Positions 22,704 to 29,546 of a stretch of DNA of 64,000 bases are shown one piece after another. Position numbers and translations under genes: made by a program. Each line of letters opens with the position of its first letter. Position 1 is the first letter of the stretch. The notes under the pieces were generated by a model. That model was not told the origin of the DNA, did no database searches, and saw nothing but the letters and a program-made list of their open reading frames with translations. This DNA comes from Lachnoclostridium sp. (GTDB lineage: Bacteria; Bacillota; Clostridia; Lachnospirales; Lachnospiraceae): contig JAETRR010000022.1 of NCBI GenBank assembly GCA_021770065.1, positions 17,979 through 81,978 on the forward strand, given 5' to 3'.

Positions 22704-22731
22704 TTGCAAATGGGCAAAAATATGCTATAAT
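22704..22731 (+). promoter_or_regulatory. Sigma-A promoter of the RADAR-like operon
   Basis: TTGCAA (22704-22709), a 16-bp spacer, TATAAT (22726-22731), giving a transcript start near 22738. It drives the leader peptide and attenuator before the first large gene. Confidence 0.75.
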
Positions 22732-22757
22732 AGATAAAAACACATGAGGTAAATACA

Positions 22758-22802
22758 ATGGATAAGCAGCTGAGAGGAAAAAATGCCCAAGGATGGGGAT
22801 AA
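22758..22802 (+). CDS. Putative 14-residue leader peptide
   Basis: The short frame MDKQLRGKNAQGWG (ATG 22758, TAA 22800-22802) has a well-spaced gaggt (22745-22749). Its last seven codons run through the left half of the terminator hairpin and its stop codon is in the loop. Ribosome position would therefore decide whether the hairpin forms. This geometry is that of transcription attenuators. No homopolymeric run of regulatory codons is present, so the sensed signal is unclear. Confidence 0.5.
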   Translation: MDKQLRGKNAQGWG

Positions 22803-22829
22803 TATACACCCATAATTGGGCATTTTTTT
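22778..22829 (+). terminator. Intrinsic terminator/attenuator upstream of the RADAR-like operon
   Basis: AAAAAATGCCCA (22778-22789) pairs with TGGGCATTTTTT (from 22817), with an inner TGGG/CCCA stem and a T7 tail. It stands between the promoter and the first gene (22866), so operon transcription must read through it. Confidence 0.8.
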
Positions 22830-22865
22830 AGTTTGAAGCATTGCGAAAGGAAAGTCGGGTATGTT

Positions 22866-24182
22866 ATGAAGAATGGAATTCGGACAGTACTGATTATACA
22901 TGATGAACTGAAGGACAGGAGAACGCTATGCCTGTCCTCTTTTTTGGAGTTTTGCGGAATATGGACGGATGAGATCTCGGATAGCTGCGGAGAAGAAATC
23001 GTGGAATTACTGGATGGAAGATATGACCTGTCTTTATACTTATGGGAGACAGAACAGTCTATGGAGCCGGATCCGTCCTGGAGAGAATCCGTAGTGGCGA
23101 TTAACTATGGGGACGTGGAGCAGGTAAAAGATGGCGTGTGCCTCAAGACGATAGACAAGTGTCTGGAGATGATGGAGGAGTGCTATGATGAAAAGGATTC
23201 ATGCGATATAAAGACATTAAAAAAGCTGAGTGAGATTTATCTAAGCGAACAGTTAAGAATATATGATTATAATGGAAAGTACTATTTTTATAGTAAGGAA
23301 TCCTCCCAAAAGGCCTACCAATGCTATTCGGAGGCGTATCAGAAATTGGATGATATTTTATTAAATGGCTTAAATGAGTCTTTTGTGGAATATGCAAAAG
23401 CGTACTGTATAAAATGCATGCATCAGCTGGCATTAGCCATGAAATGGATTCAGAGATATGATGTGCCCAGGGTTATTGAAACATTGAAGGATATTACAGA
23501 CAATGATAAAAAGCTTATTTCCTGCTGGTATTTAATGGGCCAGCTGTCAGCCGGAGAGCGAACAACCTATTTGAAATTTCCGGCAGTCAATTACTATCAA
23601 AAGTGTGTAAATGAGATGTGTCAGACGGGCCGTCCCATAATCGGGATTGAAAAAGTTTATTATGCCATGGGAGGCTACTGGGAAAAGGTGCGCAGAAAAT
23701 GGAGCAGGGCTATAGTGGATTACAAAAAAGCTTACGCTGCGAACAGGAGCTCCTTCCGGGCGTTATATAAAATTGGAGTATATAAGCAGGAAACAGAATG
23801 TAATTACAAGGAAGCATTGAATGATTACAGAGGAATCCTGGAACTATTGAACAGGAAGACGGAAGCGGATTATTTACAGCCGATAGAGGCGGAGTATATA
23901 TTTAAAACACTTATCCGGATGTTGGATATTTATATGGAATTATCAGAGGATAGACGGGTGCAGGCGGTTTATCAACAGTTAAAAGATTTGAATGAACGCC
24001 ATAAGAACAACCGCTTTTATCCGGAATTTTATGGGCTGACAGAAGAAGCTGCAGGATTCCGAAGATTAACACAGGAACGGATATCGTTAAAAAAGGCAGA
24101 AATTAAAGTTCACAATTACTATAATGGTAATCGGAAAAGTTTAAATTACAATTATGAGATAAGAGGGAAGAACTATGGCTGA
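22866..24182 (+). CDS. Unrecognised protein: N-terminal alpha/beta domain plus TPR-like repeats
   Basis: A 438-residue protein that I cannot assign to a named family. Residues 1-75 alternate hydrophobic strands and helices ('IRTVLIIHDELKDRRTLCLSS', 'GRYDLSLYLWE', 'SVVAINYGD'), like a small Rossmann-type domain. From about 110 on it is helical with tetratricopeptide-like pairs ('QKAYQCYSEAYQKLDDIL', 'FPAVNYYQKCVNEMC', 'SRAIVDYKKAYAANRSSFRALYKIGVYKQE', 'YKEALNDYRGILELL'). The stop overlaps the rdrA-like start by 8 bp, so it is translationally coupled to the defence genes. I infer a sensor or adaptor subunit; published RADAR accessory proteins known to me are of other types. Confidence 0.7.
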   Translation: MKNGIRTVLIIHDELKDRRTLCLSSFLEFCGIWTDEISDSCGEEIVELLDGRYDLSLYLWETEQSMEPDPSWRESVVAINYGDVEQVKDGVCLKTIDKCLEMMEECYDEKDSCDIKTLKKLSEIYLSEQLRIYDYNGKYYFYSKESSQKAYQCYSEAYQKLDDILLNGLNESFVEYAKAYCIKCMHQLALAMKWIQRYDVPRVIETLKDITDNDKKLISCWYLMGQLSAGERTTYLKFPAVNYYQKCVNEMCQTGRPIIGIEKVYYAMGGYWEKVRRKWSRAIVDYKKAYAANRSSFRALYKIGVYKQETECNYKEALNDYRGILELLNRKTEADYLQPIEAEYIFKTLIRMLDIYMELSEDRRVQAVYQQLKDLNERHKNNRFYPEFYGLTEEAAGFRRLTQERISLKKAEIKVHNYYNGNRKSLNYNYEIRGKNYG

Positions 24183-26757
24183 GAAAAAGATGATCCTGGA
24201 GATAGAGAGTGAGCATGGGGTTAAATATGAAAGCATAGAGGAATTCTCCCGGTCTTTATTTGGAGATGTATATTACAATGCTTTCAAAATGACGGAACGC
24301 GTTATTGATGTGAACTCGAAGTATGAGGAGGGGAAGCATGAACGTCTCTATAATATAATATCCTTTATGGGAGAAAGAGGGACAGGAAAAACGTCTGTTA
24401 TGCGTTCGTTTGCAGAGGCTTTGAAAACCTGCGATGAGAAGAAATACAGGAAGTTTTTTAAGGAACATACCGGATTTGAAATGGAAGAAGGATATACGCC
24501 CTTTTTGAATACAGAGTTTATTGCGCTGGAAAATATTGATGCTTCTCTTCTTGAGGAGAGAGAAGACATATTTGAAGTTGTTCTGGCTAAAATGATGGCA
24601 AAGTTTATGAAGGCGGCGGAAGAGAAAAACGGAAAGGAACGCATGCGGTTTCAAGACTCGGATTTGCTGAGAGAATTTGAGGAAATATACAGAAGCAAGC
24701 GCAATATGAACGGCAAGGAGCAGGATAATTACGGCTATGGGATATCTCCGGTAGAGCTGCTGCAGAATTTGTCAGGAAGCCTGGCATTGAGGGACAAATT
24801 TTGTAAATTTGTCCCTGATTTTTTGAAAGCGATTTCCGGAAATTCTGCAAAAGAGCAATTCCTGGTTATCTGTATTGATGACCTGGATATTAATAAAGAG
24901 AATGGCTTTGATATGCTGGAACAGATTCACCGGTATTTTATGGTTCCGCGGGTTCTTATCTATCTGGCAGTTTCTGAAGAACATCTTATGGATATTTGCA
25001 AAAATCACTTTGACGGCGTGTATAGGGAAAGTGAACGGCTGGCGCGGGCTTATACGGATAAAGTACTTCCCTTTTCGCAGAGAATCTATATGCCGGTGCT
25101 GCTGGCCAAAAAATCCGGTATCACAATAGGGAATAAGACAATTCAGCAGAGCCGTGACGGGGATAAGAATGACTATACAATTAAAAAGGCGATTCTCTGG
25201 AAAATGGCTCACAGGACAAATATTCTTTTTGACGGCTGTGGTTTGAAAACTCATTTTTACGAGCCGGAAGATATCAGAGCGCTGACGAATTTGTACTGTT
25301 TTCTGAACTCGCTGAAAAAACTGCATATGAATAACTGCCGGCTGTATACGAGAACAGAGAAAGATGCAGAAAAAGGCGGTGAAGTTGAGAAAGCAAATAC
25401 TGGATTTCTGGAAACCCTGGATCTTAACATTTCAAATATTCTGGATGACATCTGCAATCGTATGGCTAATGATAAATTGAACGAGATGCAGATAAAAGTA
25501 CTGCAGCGGATATATAAAACGGATCCTACGCGCCAGGGAGAGGAAATATTGAATTATATCGAACAGATGATAGATGATGCTGATTTTGTAAATGATTTAC
25601 AGTTTTTTAAAAAGTATAATATAGGAGAGATTTTCCGTGGAATTTATGTTTTAGGGCGCGAGAATAAGGAAGAAAAGCCTATGCTGCATTGTATTATGGC
25701 TTTGGCCTCGGCACTTATGACCAGGCTGTATATGCATTCCCTATACGAAAAAACAAAAGAAAAAAGACAAAGAGACTACGATATTTTGCAAAGCTATATA
25801 TCGGATACTGTAGTGGGAAGCTGGGGAAATTATTTATCTCCGCTGCTCAATGTGGAAGAGTTATTTGAATCACATCAAAAGTATGAAATGGGTTACATAA
25901 ATGTGGCCAATACAGATGATGATATGGAAATCACTTCTGTTCCAGATGCGGATTTTGATACGTTTCTAAAAAATATGCAAGAGCAGGATACGGTAAAGGA
26001 ATTGGAAGTGCTGCTGATGTTTTTTGTAAATTGGGGGTATGGAAAGAAAGGGACGGCCTGTGTCCTGGAGATGGAAAAGATAGGAGTACCACAAACGAAG
26101 GAAAAGGAAAATGCGGAAAATCATTTTTCAGATGACACACAAAACGGAGTCATACGAATAAAGTGCAAAAATGAAAGAATTACTTTTGACAGATGGGGAT
26201 TTGTGATAAATTCCGCTCGTTATGTTGAATATTTCGAACAAGTGCATAAGACTCTCTGCGATGCGGTTGTGAAATGCTTTCATATTGAGGAAGAAAAAGA
26301 AAAGATTAAAAAAATAGAAGAAGTAATTACAAACAATTCATTGTACCAGAATTATAAAGAATGGGAGAAAGGATATGGCTATGCGGTAATACCCTTTTAT
26401 AATATTGATATGCTCTATAACATTGAAAAAAGAATAAAAGCGGAAAATGAAAAGCGCTATCCAAATGGGATTGGGAAAGAGATGATTTTTGAATCTATCC
26501 TGCAGGACTATGATTTATTGGAAGAGCAGCTGAATAAAGAAGATGATTTTTACCGGGATGAATATCCCAAAGAGGAATTTTCCAAACATAAAACGTTTGT
26601 GGATATATATAGAAGTTGTCCTTTTATTCAGTATTTACGGGAGAAAAAGAACAGCCTGAAGGACAGAATGAACGATTTCATCTATGAGAAAGTTGTCCTG
26701 GCAGATTACACAAGAGGAGAAGAAAGAGAACTGTCATCAGAGATTGGAGAATACTGA
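24175..26757 (+). CDS. rdrA: RdrA-like KAP/AAA-type P-loop ATPase (RADAR)
   Basis: An 860-residue cytoplasmic ATPase. Walker A is G66-E-R-G-T-G-K-T-S74 ('FMGERGTGKTSVMRSF'); Walker B is 'FLVICIDDLD' with D235 and D236. A KAP-like segment follows ('GFDMLEQIHRYFMVPRVLIYLAVSEEHLMDI', 'AYTDKVLPFSQRIYMPVL'). The C-terminal 500 residues are helical and charged, without a named domain. Size, ATPase type and position directly before an adenosine-deaminase-like gene match RdrA, which assembles with RdrB and triggers nucleotide/RNA deamination during phage infection. Composition is AT-rich. It starts inside the upstream gene's stop region. Confidence 0.82.
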   Translation: MAEKKMILEIESEHGVKYESIEEFSRSLFGDVYYNAFKMTERVIDVNSKYEEGKHERLYNIISFMGERGTGKTSVMRSFAEALKTCDEKKYRKFFKEHTGFEMEEGYTPFLNTEFIALENIDASLLEEREDIFEVVLAKMMAKFMKAAEEKNGKERMRFQDSDLLREFEEIYRSKRNMNGKEQDNYGYGISPVELLQNLSGSLALRDKFCKFVPDFLKAISGNSAKEQFLVICIDDLDINKENGFDMLEQIHRYFMVPRVLIYLAVSEEHLMDICKNHFDGVYRESERLARAYTDKVLPFSQRIYMPVLLAKKSGITIGNKTIQQSRDGDKNDYTIKKAILWKMAHRTNILFDGCGLKTHFYEPEDIRALTNLYCFLNSLKKLHMNNCRLYTRTEKDAEKGGEVEKANTGFLETLDLNISNILDDICNRMANDKLNEMQIKVLQRIYKTDPTRQGEEILNYIEQMIDDADFVNDLQFFKKYNIGEIFRGIYVLGRENKEEKPMLHCIMALASALMTRLYMHSLYEKTKEKRQRDYDILQSYISDTVVGSWGNYLSPLLNVEELFESHQKYEMGYINVANTDDDMEITSVPDADFDTFLKNMQEQDTVKELEVLLMFFVNWGYGKKGTACVLEMEKIGVPQTKEKENAENHFSDDTQNGVIRIKCKNERITFDRWGFVINSARYVEYFEQVHKTLCDAVVKCFHIEEEKEKIKKIEEVITNNSLYQNYKEWEKGYGYAVIPFYNIDMLYNIEKRIKAENEKRYPNGIGKEMIFESILQDYDLLEEQLNKEDDFYRDEYPKEEFSKHKTFVDIYRSCPFIQYLREKKNSLKDRMNDFIYEKVVLADYTRGEERELSSEIGEY

Positions 26758-26762
26758 TAATC

Positions 26763-29546
26763 ATGCTGGATAATTTAGAAAAGGTACTGAAGATAATGTT
26801 TGGGAAGGTCTCTCCCGAAATGGTCTTTCAAGAGAGAATTCACAGTGAAGCAATCAGAGAAAGTGAATTTGTGCGCATGATGCGGGGATATGAAGGCACG
26901 TACAGCGATACGGAGCTTTCAAATCTGTATGATTATCTGGTGCGCAATTTTGAAAGCAGCTTTTTTGCTTTGGATGTTATGCCGGGAAGAAGCCCTTCGC
27001 TCAATGTCTTTCATCTTTTGTTCTGGTATGGGAATTGGATATTAACAATTGAGAACGGAGAAATTCTGTGTCAGTATAAATGGCTTCTGCATTGGAGAAT
27101 GAGTACCATTAGTTTAAGTGAAGATTTGTTTATCGCAGCATTTCTGGCATACAGGGAAAAGAATGAACGCATACGTAGAACGGCATTTGGCTGGAAACCT
27201 GTTATTACACATAACAATGTTCAGCTGCATCGGGTTCTTGAACACGGAATGTCAGAAAATCATTATCATTTAAAGGGATCGGGGCCCATTTTTCACTTAT
27301 CCTGGATTAGCATTATGAACGATATTATGGATGCTAATTTTTTGAAGTATTTCCGAAAACTGGATTCGGAACGGCGGATGTTTCATGTGAACTATGATGC
27401 CGGTTGCTGCGAAGCTCCCTTTGAGGTTCAAATTTTACAGGCAGCATTGATAAGAGTGTTTTTATGTTACCAATATATGAGACAGCCTCTGGAACTATGT
27501 GAAGAAAATTGGTACGGGGATGTGCAAAAGGTCATTCAATGCCTGCAGAATCCGGAGGCAATATGCTTAAAACGCTATGAGATACAAGGATTTATCCGGA
27601 AGATGAATCGTGTAAGGGGGCTTTGGCATGCCGCAGAGCTTCCGGATTATGCATTGAACGGTCTGGGAGCAGCCAATTACAATATGGAGGAGGAAACAGC
27701 AGTCTATCAGGGGGAGCGCTGGTTTTTATATACATCTTTCTGGTATTTAAACAGGGAACCGGCGGATATGGGATATTTGCCGGATTTACTTTATGCTTAT
27801 ATACTGATAAAAGAAAATATACGTTCCGAATTGATTCAGAGCAATAATTATATAGGCTTTGAAAATTTTCAGATATATCAGGATAGGAAAGAATTTTTTT
27901 TGGAATCTCCTTTTTATCAGAGAGGGCTTGTGAGGGAAGCTGTCCGCAATAACCTGCTGAGCGGAAATGTATTGACTCTGGAGGCCAGAATTGCGCCGAA
28001 AGAAAGTGCGGAAAAAATGATGGCCTGCATAAGAAAACTGGATAACTTTATAGTAAAAAATGAAGCTTACAAAAGCAGGTTTTTTTACACGGTTCATTTT
28101 ATTAAAGAAACAGAAAAAATGCCGGATAAAAGCCCGGTTCTTTTATGCAGAGATTGTAAAGTACGTGAAAAGGCAAAAAAAGGAGCCCTGGCATTGGCAG
28201 ATATGCGAGAGAGGTATCCGGAGTATGCAGTGAGAATAAGAGGTATTGATGCGGCTTCACAGGAAATCTCCTGTCGGCCGGAAGTATTTGCGCAGGTATT
28301 CCGCTTCCTTTCGGATCATGTCCGGCAGGGCACAGAGTTTTTTGGAAAATCATTGCCGCAATTGAGGATGACGTATCATGTGGGAGAAGATTTTTTTGAT
28401 ATACTAAGCGGGATTCGGGCAATTGATGAGGCGATTCACTTTTTAAATATGCCATGCGGTGCAAGAATGGGGCATGCACTTGCTCTCGGGGTGGATGTTG
28501 AGGACTGGTATCGTTCTAAGAATAACAGGATTTTACTTTCACAACAGGAATATCTGGATAATGTGGTCTGGCTGTATCATGTGCTGGCTGCATTCAGAAT
28601 AGAAGATACATCGGCAATAAAAGAGCATTTAAAGAAGGAGTATGACTACTATTTTCAGCTTATATATGGTAATTCGATGGATGAAGAAGATTTGGACTGC
28701 ATAAACAGGAAGGCCAGGGAGTACTATCAGGGAACCGAGTGGGAAAATTATTACAGAGTAAAAAAACTGCAATTTAGTATCGAAACGTATTATGCAGCAT
28801 GGCGGCTGAGGGGGGACGATCCAGACCTGTACAGACGGGGGTTTTTTGAGAACAGGAGAACCTTTGACTGTATGAGATATACGTATTCTTTTTATGCAGT
28901 CAACAGAAAATTTCCTCAAAAGAGGCAGGATACCAGGTATTTTCAGGAAAATGCACTTTTGTATTACTATTATCATTTTGACTGGAATGTGCGGTATGAG
29001 GGAGGAAAACGGGTAGAGATCAAAATACTGCCGATGTACAAAAAGGCAGTGGCAAAGATACAAAAGGAAATGCAGAGGAGAGTAGCAGAGTACGGCATCG
29101 GTATAGAAACGAATCCGTCTTCAAATTATTTGATTGGAACATTTAAACGTTATGACAAGCATCCGATTATTCAATTTTATAATAGGAATTTGACAAATGA
29201 CTGGGAGCAGCTGGCGGACTGCCCGCAGCTTTGTGTTTCAATCAATACAGATGACAGCGGTGTTTTTAGTGTTTCACTTGAAAATGAATATGCATATATG
29301 GCGCTTGCTTTGGAGAAAATGAAGGATCAAAATGGCAGACCTTTATATAATAAAAGCATGATTTACCAGTGGCTGGATGATATAAGGAACATGGGCATCG
29401 GGCAGACCTTTTTAGACAGAAATGAAATGGTAAGAGCCAGACAGGAATGGGAGGGCAGTTCCGGTTCTGAAAATGCCGGGAGTGAAATGGGAAAAAAATC
29501 CCATTCTACACTCCTTTCATCCATTCATCCATCCGATCCTCAATAA
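26763..29546 (+). CDS. rdrB: RdrB-like divergent adenosine deaminase (RADAR)
   Basis: A 927-residue protein with a full adenosine-deaminase metal site spread through a large body: H167-x-H169 ('SENHYHLKGSG'), H539 with catalytic E542 ('TYHVGED'), H571 ('RMGHALALG') and D830-D831 ('NTDDSGVF'). Ordinary deaminases are about 340 residues; the long insertions and length match RdrB, which forms large cages and deaminates ATP/dATP or RNA adenosine to inosine. It is 5 bp after the ATPase gene. The last 20-30 residues (from about 'GKKSHSTLL') are encoded by DNA that overlaps the convergent DUF885 gene, so they are probably not family sequence. Confidence 0.85.
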   Translation: MLDNLEKVLKIMFGKVSPEMVFQERIHSEAIRESEFVRMMRGYEGTYSDTELSNLYDYLVRNFESSFFALDVMPGRSPSLNVFHLLFWYGNWILTIENGEILCQYKWLLHWRMSTISLSEDLFIAAFLAYREKNERIRRTAFGWKPVITHNNVQLHRVLEHGMSENHYHLKGSGPIFHLSWISIMNDIMDANFLKYFRKLDSERRMFHVNYDAGCCEAPFEVQILQAALIRVFLCYQYMRQPLELCEENWYGDVQKVIQCLQNPEAICLKRYEIQGFIRKMNRVRGLWHAAELPDYALNGLGAANYNMEEETAVYQGERWFLYTSFWYLNREPADMGYLPDLLYAYILIKENIRSELIQSNNYIGFENFQIYQDRKEFFLESPFYQRGLVREAVRNNLLSGNVLTLEARIAPKESAEKMMACIRKLDNFIVKNEAYKSRFFYTVHFIKETEKMPDKSPVLLCRDCKVREKAKKGALALADMRERYPEYAVRIRGIDAASQEISCRPEVFAQVFRFLSDHVRQGTEFFGKSLPQLRMTYHVGEDFFDILSGIRAIDEAIHFLNMPCGARMGHALALGVDVEDWYRSKNNRILLSQQEYLDNVVWLYHVLAAFRIEDTSAIKEHLKKEYDYYFQLIYGNSMDEEDLDCINRKAREYYQGTEWENYYRVKKLQFSIETYYAAWRLRGDDPDLYRRGFFENRRTFDCMRYTYSFYAVNRKFPQKRQDTRYFQENALLYYYYHFDWNVRYEGGKRVEIKILPMYKKAVAKIQKEMQRRVAEYGIGIETNPSSNYLIGTFKRYDKHPIIQFYNRNLTNDWEQLADCPQLCVSINTDDSGVFSVSLENEYAYMALALEKMKDQNGRPLYNKSMIYQWLDDIRNMGIGQTFLDRNEMVRARQEWEGSSGSENAGSEMGKKSHSTLLSSIHPSDPQ

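Follow-up and report, generated by a model that had tools for sequence, protein, structure and literature searches.

What kind of defence system is encoded at positions 22866-29546 of a 64,000-nucleotide stretch of Lachnoclostridium sp. DNA (contig JAETRR010000022.1; hereafter the window), and what does the first of its genes contribute? A reading of the open reading frames (ORFs) shows three genes on the forward strand of this interval, ORF1, rdrA and rdrB (Table 1). A preliminary description of the same DNA had assigned rdrA and rdrB to the RADAR anti-phage systems, which our analysis supports, and missed the conserved ORF1 within the same interval. We read the locus as a three-gene RADAR operon of divergent sequence: RdrB would make inosine and deoxyinosine triphosphate (ITP and dITP) on infection, and ORF1 likely docks on the C-terminal lobe of RdrA and relays a phage signal; the chances of this full reading seem to us about even. 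The system is a known one, and what appears to be new is the variant with ORF1 upstream.

A divergent RADAR core

The genes follow in the order ORF1, rdrA, rdrB and are closely coupled, with an overlap of 8 bp between the first two and a spacing of 5 bp between the second and third. Models for RdrA and RdrB head the match lists of both PADLOC and NCBIfam (E 8.7e-14 and 4.6e-21 for RdrA, E 1.6e-34 and 2.1e-48 for RdrB), which supports the RADAR assignment that had been made. In the ATPase, all residues of the proposed P-loop motifs are in place, with G66, E67, R68, G69, T70, G71, K72, T73 and S74 forming the Walker A segment and D235 and D236 the Walker B pair; G66, R68, G69, G71 and K72 are invariant across 40 aligned RdrA sequences. 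A Foldseek search with the predicted RdrA structure returned RdrA chains, not unrelated ATPases, as its 20 best matches, aligned over nearly the full length (approximately residue 5 to 843) and well above other AAA+ proteins. The protein is an AAA+ ATPase that, by its predicted fold, carries the RdrA C-terminal lobe.

For RdrB, Pfam A_deaminase is matched above its cut-off, and a sequence comparison with the PDB matched nothing but two deaminase chains, 8fnv_A (E 1.7e-30) and 8fnw_A, the latter from an entry whose title names the RdrA-RdrB complex of E. coli. PADLOC CARF_ADA also matches RdrB, in its deaminase part only. The metal-binding and catalytic residues listed earlier for this protein (H167, H169, H539, E542, H571 and D830) were all confirmed, and the spacing of the His tetrad and catalytic Glu equals that of EcRdrB, whose active site comprises H152/H154, H498, E501 and H530 (PMC9994260). 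By analogy with characterised RADAR systems, the two proteins would assemble as funnel-shaped RdrA heptamers docked on a shell of twelve RdrB subunits.

Neither protein reaches its NCBIfam equivalog cut-off: RdrA scores 75 of 600 bits (NF041743) and RdrB 165.5 of 800 (NF041744). These cut-offs are annotation thresholds for naming rather than biological features, so we class the locus as a divergent variant of RADAR rather than an equivalog. As the member in the window scores too low for the models now used in naming, systems of this kind have probably been undercounted.

ORF1 marks one RADAR lineage

ORF1 is restricted to one side of the RdrB tree, and every full-length copy in view lies directly 5' of rdrA. 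Neighbourhood counts were made on the loci of the best 80 of 194 RdrB relatives. RdrA adjoins RdrB in 80 of the 82 loci tallied, a number that includes the window and one duplicate of L002, and the remaining two (L040 and L057) begin inside rdrB at a contig end; the co-occurrence of the two genes across genomes, on which the RADAR assignment partly hung, is therefore borne out. A profile search of ORFs placed ORF1 directly 5' of rdrA in 27 of the 80 RdrB loci, with gaps of -68 to 171 bp, and locus L003 holds two ORF1-rdrA operons, the second truncated by the contig end. A 361-residue gene 3' of rdrB in L016 was rejected as an ORF1 relative, as its profile match (1.1e-32) covers only positions 206-314, in the repeats, although one profile tally of 29 still counts it.

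On the RdrB tree of 82 rows, ORF1 is found in 30 of the 34 rows of one side and in none of the 48 of the other. The label changes four times on this tree, compared to 24.6 times in shuffles, a contrast inflated by near-copies and by sampling according to similarity to the window. Left out of the tree were L032 and L040, with a broken or short RdrB, and L001, L082 and L083, which are duplicates or a fragment. Two of the four exceptions on the ORF1 side, L023 and L056, have contigs that end in rdrA. The lineage that ORF1 marks consists mostly of Lachnospiraceae and other Clostridia.

Searches were also started from ORF1. With the single sequence, 5 matches were found among 5.8 billion proteins; a 33-row alignment gave 22, of which 16 appear by score and length to be full-length relatives (E 2.8e-51 or better) and six are TPR-rich proteins (tetratricopeptide repeat; E 1e-11 or worse). 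The genome surveys scored only the top candidates per genome (5 for ORF1 in the family, 4 in the order and 2 for RdrB in the family), so absences from them are not proven. Among 299 genomes of the family, 20 matched ORF1, and seven of these matches were full-length and strong, all seven directly adjoined by rdrA and rdrB. The remaining 13 (E 8.4e-10 to 8.7e-7) were set aside because they matched only in part, to TPR sequence, and no rdrA or rdrB match was seen around the two of them that were checked (L108 and L109). RdrB occurs in 11 of the 299 genomes, and these 11 include all seven with ORF1 (P 8.4e-12); G068 has a second RdrB match, and in G290 the contig stops inside rdrA. In 392 genomes of the order ORF1 was found three times, once in a new genome (G516), where it likewise adjoins rdrA-rdrB. 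No ORF1 without rdrA was found in the eight genomes retrieved by ORF1 alone. ORF1 was absent from all seven plasmid or viral RADAR loci considered, namely one on a viral contig and six of the seven plasmid matches (H6 was left out).

The ORF1 protein and its likely partner

The AlphaFold2 model of ORF1 (predicted local distance difference test 88.4, predicted template modelling score 0.89) shows a predicted small alpha/beta N-terminal domain followed by a TPR superhelix at residues ~89-420. Among the structural matches listed for the superhelix are TPR and other helical-repeat proteins, for example Rap and LGN, and the commonest Pfam match, TPR_2, is found in 22 of 33 ORF1 members at E values up to 1. 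The relatives diverge strongly, with 11-69% identity to the window copy.

The N-terminal domain was also compared with short TIR and receiver domains, which FISY-like starts in L009 and in the second copy of L003 had suggested by eye. The hhalign probabilities were below 1% against 20 TIR domains (24 loci were kept, four of them without a usable stretch) and three receivers, a weak test given the few receivers and the lack of a positive control. TIR was not among the Pfam rows listed for the ORF1 family (25 of 53 families in one listing), and no alpha/beta family appeared in the structural match list, which carries little weight as TPR rows fill that list.

Covariation among the three proteins suggests where ORF1 acts. 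Across 30 operons, tree distances correlate at 0.84 for ORF1-RdrA, 0.70 for ORF1-RdrB and 0.71 for RdrA-RdrB, and none of 2000 label shuffles reached any of these values. When the proteins are divided into domains, the top partial correlation of ORF1 links its TPR part to the RdrA C-lobe (0.40; 0.15, 0.65), and this exceeds the link between the TPR part and the RdrB C-half in 99.6% of bootstraps. The top RdrA-RdrB partial correlation joins the AAA+ part to the RdrB N-half (0.49; 0.14, 0.77), and published RdrA-RdrB contacts run via the AAA+ crown (PMC9994260). The covarying pieces are not neighbours on the DNA; if recombination acting by distance were the cause, different pairs should stand out. 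We infer from the covariation that the TPR part of ORF1 binds the RdrA C-terminal lobe.

A proposed mechanism, and the readings that compete with it

In the mechanism that we propose, ORF1 would be a receptor or adaptor of RADAR, the part that senses phage: seated on the RdrA C-lobe, it would recognise a phage product or state on infection. RdrA would then switch on the RdrB shell at the expense of ATP, and RdrB would convert ATP and dATP to ITP and dITP, a poisoning of the nucleotide pool that would halt phage replication. The same conversion has been demonstrated for E. coli RADAR (PMC9994260), and of the two outcomes first offered for this locus, editing of adenosine nucleotides or of RNA, the comparison leans to the former. 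More tentatively, and with odds that we place somewhat below even, these loci may represent a Clostridia RADAR lineage whose core includes a third, dedicated subunit. This would be a receptor of alpha/beta-TPR type, placed away from RdrB where the RdrA funnel opens at its C-terminal end, and would act as a phage-product ON switch for the conversion of ATP to ITP. The feature of infection that activates RADAR is described as unclear, with the RdrA C-terminal domain under suspicion (PMC9994260, Discussion); a receptor on the RdrA C-lobe would, if true, answer what activates RADAR, and a conserved additional subunit whose evolution tracks that of the RdrA C-terminal domain would make the question of the trigger directly testable. 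Our literature search, which covered neither supplements nor the original report of Gao et al. 2020, turned up no publication that connects RADAR with a TPR gene.

Several observations weigh against this proposal. The TPR-C-lobe link exceeds that between the TPR part and the AAA+ domain in only 93% of bootstraps, and that with the RdrB N-half in only 90%, in a small sample of 30 related operons treated as independent loci. The N-terminal domain could not be assigned to any named fold, and both core proteins lie far below the naming cut-offs. Three of the 10 family genomes with the region in view (G183, G300 and G311) have RdrB without ORF1 5' of rdrA. In G183 a 126-residue ORF near, but not adjoining, rdrA gives a weak match to the ORF1 profile (6.8e-6). 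On the ORF1 side of the tree, L037 and L071 have the relevant sequence in view and show neither ORF1 nor a remnant of it. Finally, two genes suffice for defence by E. coli RADAR (PMC9994260), and characterised RADARs function as two-gene systems, so ORF1 is no general requirement.

That last fact would also suit a reading in which the operon is an ordinary two-gene RADAR and ORF1 rides along as a passenger, or as a module of its own that only shares the promoter; the 48 of 82 tree rows that lack ORF1, all from the side without any copy, and the differences between loci in other RADAR neighbours point the same way. We nevertheless consider this improbable, as 30 of the 34 rows in one lineage have ORF1 at the same position and it was not seen without rdrA in the genomes found through ORF1 alone. 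A stronger competitor, though still on the unlikely side, is that ORF1 serves as a brake that holds RdrA and RdrB inactive, or as an assembly chaperone for a very large complex. Its position as the first gene, overlapping rdrA, would fit either role, the ORF1-RdrA covariation fits them equally well, and a brake would be useful given that E. coli RdrB is toxic on overexpression (PMC9994260, Discussion). On the other hand, the strongest link of ORF1 is to the RdrA C-terminal lobe and not to RdrB, its divergence suits a sensor better than a chaperone, and related and characterised RADARs manage without it. The least probable of the alternatives, in our estimate, concerns RdrB: it would edit adenosines in RNA and not free nucleotides, as in the first model proposed for RADAR (the original report as described in PMC9994260 and PMC7699616), in line with PDB entries titled, for example, 'RdrA ring in RNA-loading state'. 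The active-site set, however, is the one found in deaminases that act on free nucleosides and nucleotides, and RdrB purified from the E. coli system accepted ATP and dATP as substrates for deamination, whereas a hairpin RNA was not deaminated (PMC9994260).

Accessory genes and neighbours in related loci

Csx27-like genes lie 3' of rdrB in ORF1 loci L005, L011 and L069 (by PADLOC) and L012 and L105 (by BLAST). DUF4231 genes, which we take to be SLATT-like, occupy the same side in ORF1 loci L015, L031 and L072, as sub-threshold Pfam matches, and in L025, L026, L030 and L054, by BLAST; SIR2-bearing genes do so in L003 and L018. Csx27 and SLATT are known RADAR accessories (PMC7699616, PMC11676413), and their co-occurrence with ORF1 in relatives indicates that in these loci ORF1 was added to the known accessories and not swapped for them. 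Directly 3' of the window rdrB there is no Csx27 or SLATT gene, and in L002/L110 no ORF of at least 100 residues lies on the strand of rdrB within 350 bp after it.

Other neighbours are more varied. Directly after rdrB and before the second ORF1-rdrA pair, L003 carries a HAM1-SIR2 fusion gene (L003:6762-8246), which matches HAM1, the ITP/dITP pyrophosphatase family (Pfam 4.1e-23), SIR2 (3.8e-27) and PADLOC ThsA (3.5e-30). KomB is presumably HAM1-like too. By analogy with dITP in Kongming (PMC12948488), ITP made by RADAR might trigger an NADase through this fusion. At L141:9914-11304, HAM1 and SIR2 are encoded by separate genes that share 4 bp and lie between genes that resemble purine-biosynthesis genes by eye, and no RdrA or RdrB profile match was seen there within 15 kb. 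In L018 a SIR2 + STAND-NTPase gene (L018:9345-11969) overlaps the end of rdrB by 4 bp, in L009 the ORF of a dNTPase-like HD-domain gene with a phosphohydrolase-associated domain (L009:12668-14185) opens 3 bp after rdrB, and in L039 a prokaryotic STING domain gene (L039:12649-13308; Pfam 4.3e-12) follows rdrB by 2 bp. Just 5' of rdrA, L019 has an AbiV-type HEPN gene (L019:6736-7458; Pfam 8e-25) and L047 a 54% identical relative of it (L047:6553-7278). The rdrA gene itself is split at a similar point in the Bacteroidota loci L019, L038, L042, L044 and L051, and in L037 and L046, into an AAA+ gene of 310-364 residues and a C-terminal gene of 472-696 residues, possibly a two-subunit RdrA.

Host range and local sequence

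The nearest relative among the RdrB loci sampled is that of Lachnoclostridium sp. An131 (L002), with an RdrB 63% identical, and 2 of 16 genomes of the genus, including that of the window, have RdrB. No RdrB match was found in 50,697 phage records, seven were found in 72,556 plasmid records and one relative in viral contigs. An IMG/VR viral contig (L140) carries rdrA and a contig-cut rdrB, which suggests that RADAR may ride on phage-like elements.

The guanine + cytosine content of the operon is 39.7%, lower, as had been noted, than that of the flanking 5 kb on each side (46.3% and 47.9%). An alternative ORF1 start at 22833 is possible and would add 11 residues. Upstream, the promoter-like site is weak evidence, with two such sites in the stretch compared to a chance expectation of 1.5. 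The leader hairpin sits after a possible 14-codon leader ORF, 36 bp 5' of ORF1, and is maybe an attenuator or the terminator of the upstream gene. As a conserved element it was dropped: any terminator-like hairpin occurs in 7 of 29 ORF1 leaders, the window's included, at varying positions (5 of 580 shuffles), and Rfam matches were at chance level only. Downstream, the next gene is convergent, on the minus strand, and the final 41 bp of rdrB (29506-29546) overlap its 3' end, so the RdrB tail may derive from an insertion junction. An empty insertion site could not be demonstrated with the flanking proteins named earlier as cwlD and DUF885, whose best matches lie on different contigs in 14 of 15 same-genus genomes and ~78 kb apart in the other.

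Table 1 Features of the RADAR operon and its leader, in window coordinates
Feature	Position	Strand	Description
Promoter-like site 5' of ORF1	22704..22731	+	Consensus match 10/12
Terminator-like leader hairpin with T run	22780..22829	+	Between promoter-like site and ORF1; minimum free energy -31.8 kcal/mol, z -5.88 over 22735-22840
ORF1	22866..24182	+	438 residues; first gene of the operon; proposed RADAR receptor/adaptor, from ORF, AlphaFold2 model, TPR matches and relatives 5' of rdrA
rdrA	24175..26757	+	860-residue AAA+ ATPase, from PADLOC, NCBIfam and RdrA fold
Walker A	24370..24393	+	RdrA residues 66-73, GERGTGKT
Walker B D235-D236	24877..24882	+	Invariant across 40 RdrA rows
rdrB	26763..29546	+	927-residue adenosine-deaminase-family protein, from PADLOC, NCBIfam, PDB 8fnv_A and Pfam A_deaminase
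Predicted zinc ligands H167, H169	27261..27269	+	Invariant in 23 RdrB rows
Predicted zinc ligand H539 and catalytic E542	28377..28388	+	Invariant in 23 RdrB rows; aligns with PDB deaminase chain
Predicted zinc ligand H571	28473..28475	+	Invariant in 23 RdrB rows
Conserved D830	29250..29252	+	Invariant in 23 RdrB rows

Comparison with known systems

With the RADAR systems of E. coli, Citrobacter rodentium and Streptococcus suis, the window shares the tandem of a large AAA+ ATPase and a large deaminase-family protein, the RdrA fold and the spacing of the His tetrad and Glu; it differs from them in the addition of ORF1 5' of rdrA and in sequences far below the model cut-offs. The Csx27- and SLATT-associated RADAR subtypes (rdrC, rdrD; PMC7699616) likewise have a RADAR core with added genes, as in the ORF1 lineage, but ORF1 differs from these additions in its place upstream, in being a TPR protein where they are small membrane proteins, and in turning up both in their company and in their absence. 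ORF1 has the superhelix fold in common with TPR proteins such as the Rap regulators and LGN, whereas its model adds the alpha/beta N-terminal domain; TPR folds are common, and a match to them shows no function. Cad1, a CARF-fused adenosine deaminase (PMC11645235), and Kongming, a deaminase with a dITP-sensing partner (PMC12948488), are also anti-phage deaminase-family enzymes making ITP or dITP. The window differs from both in having RdrA, and no CARF domain was found in Pfam and PADLOC scans of the three operon proteins.

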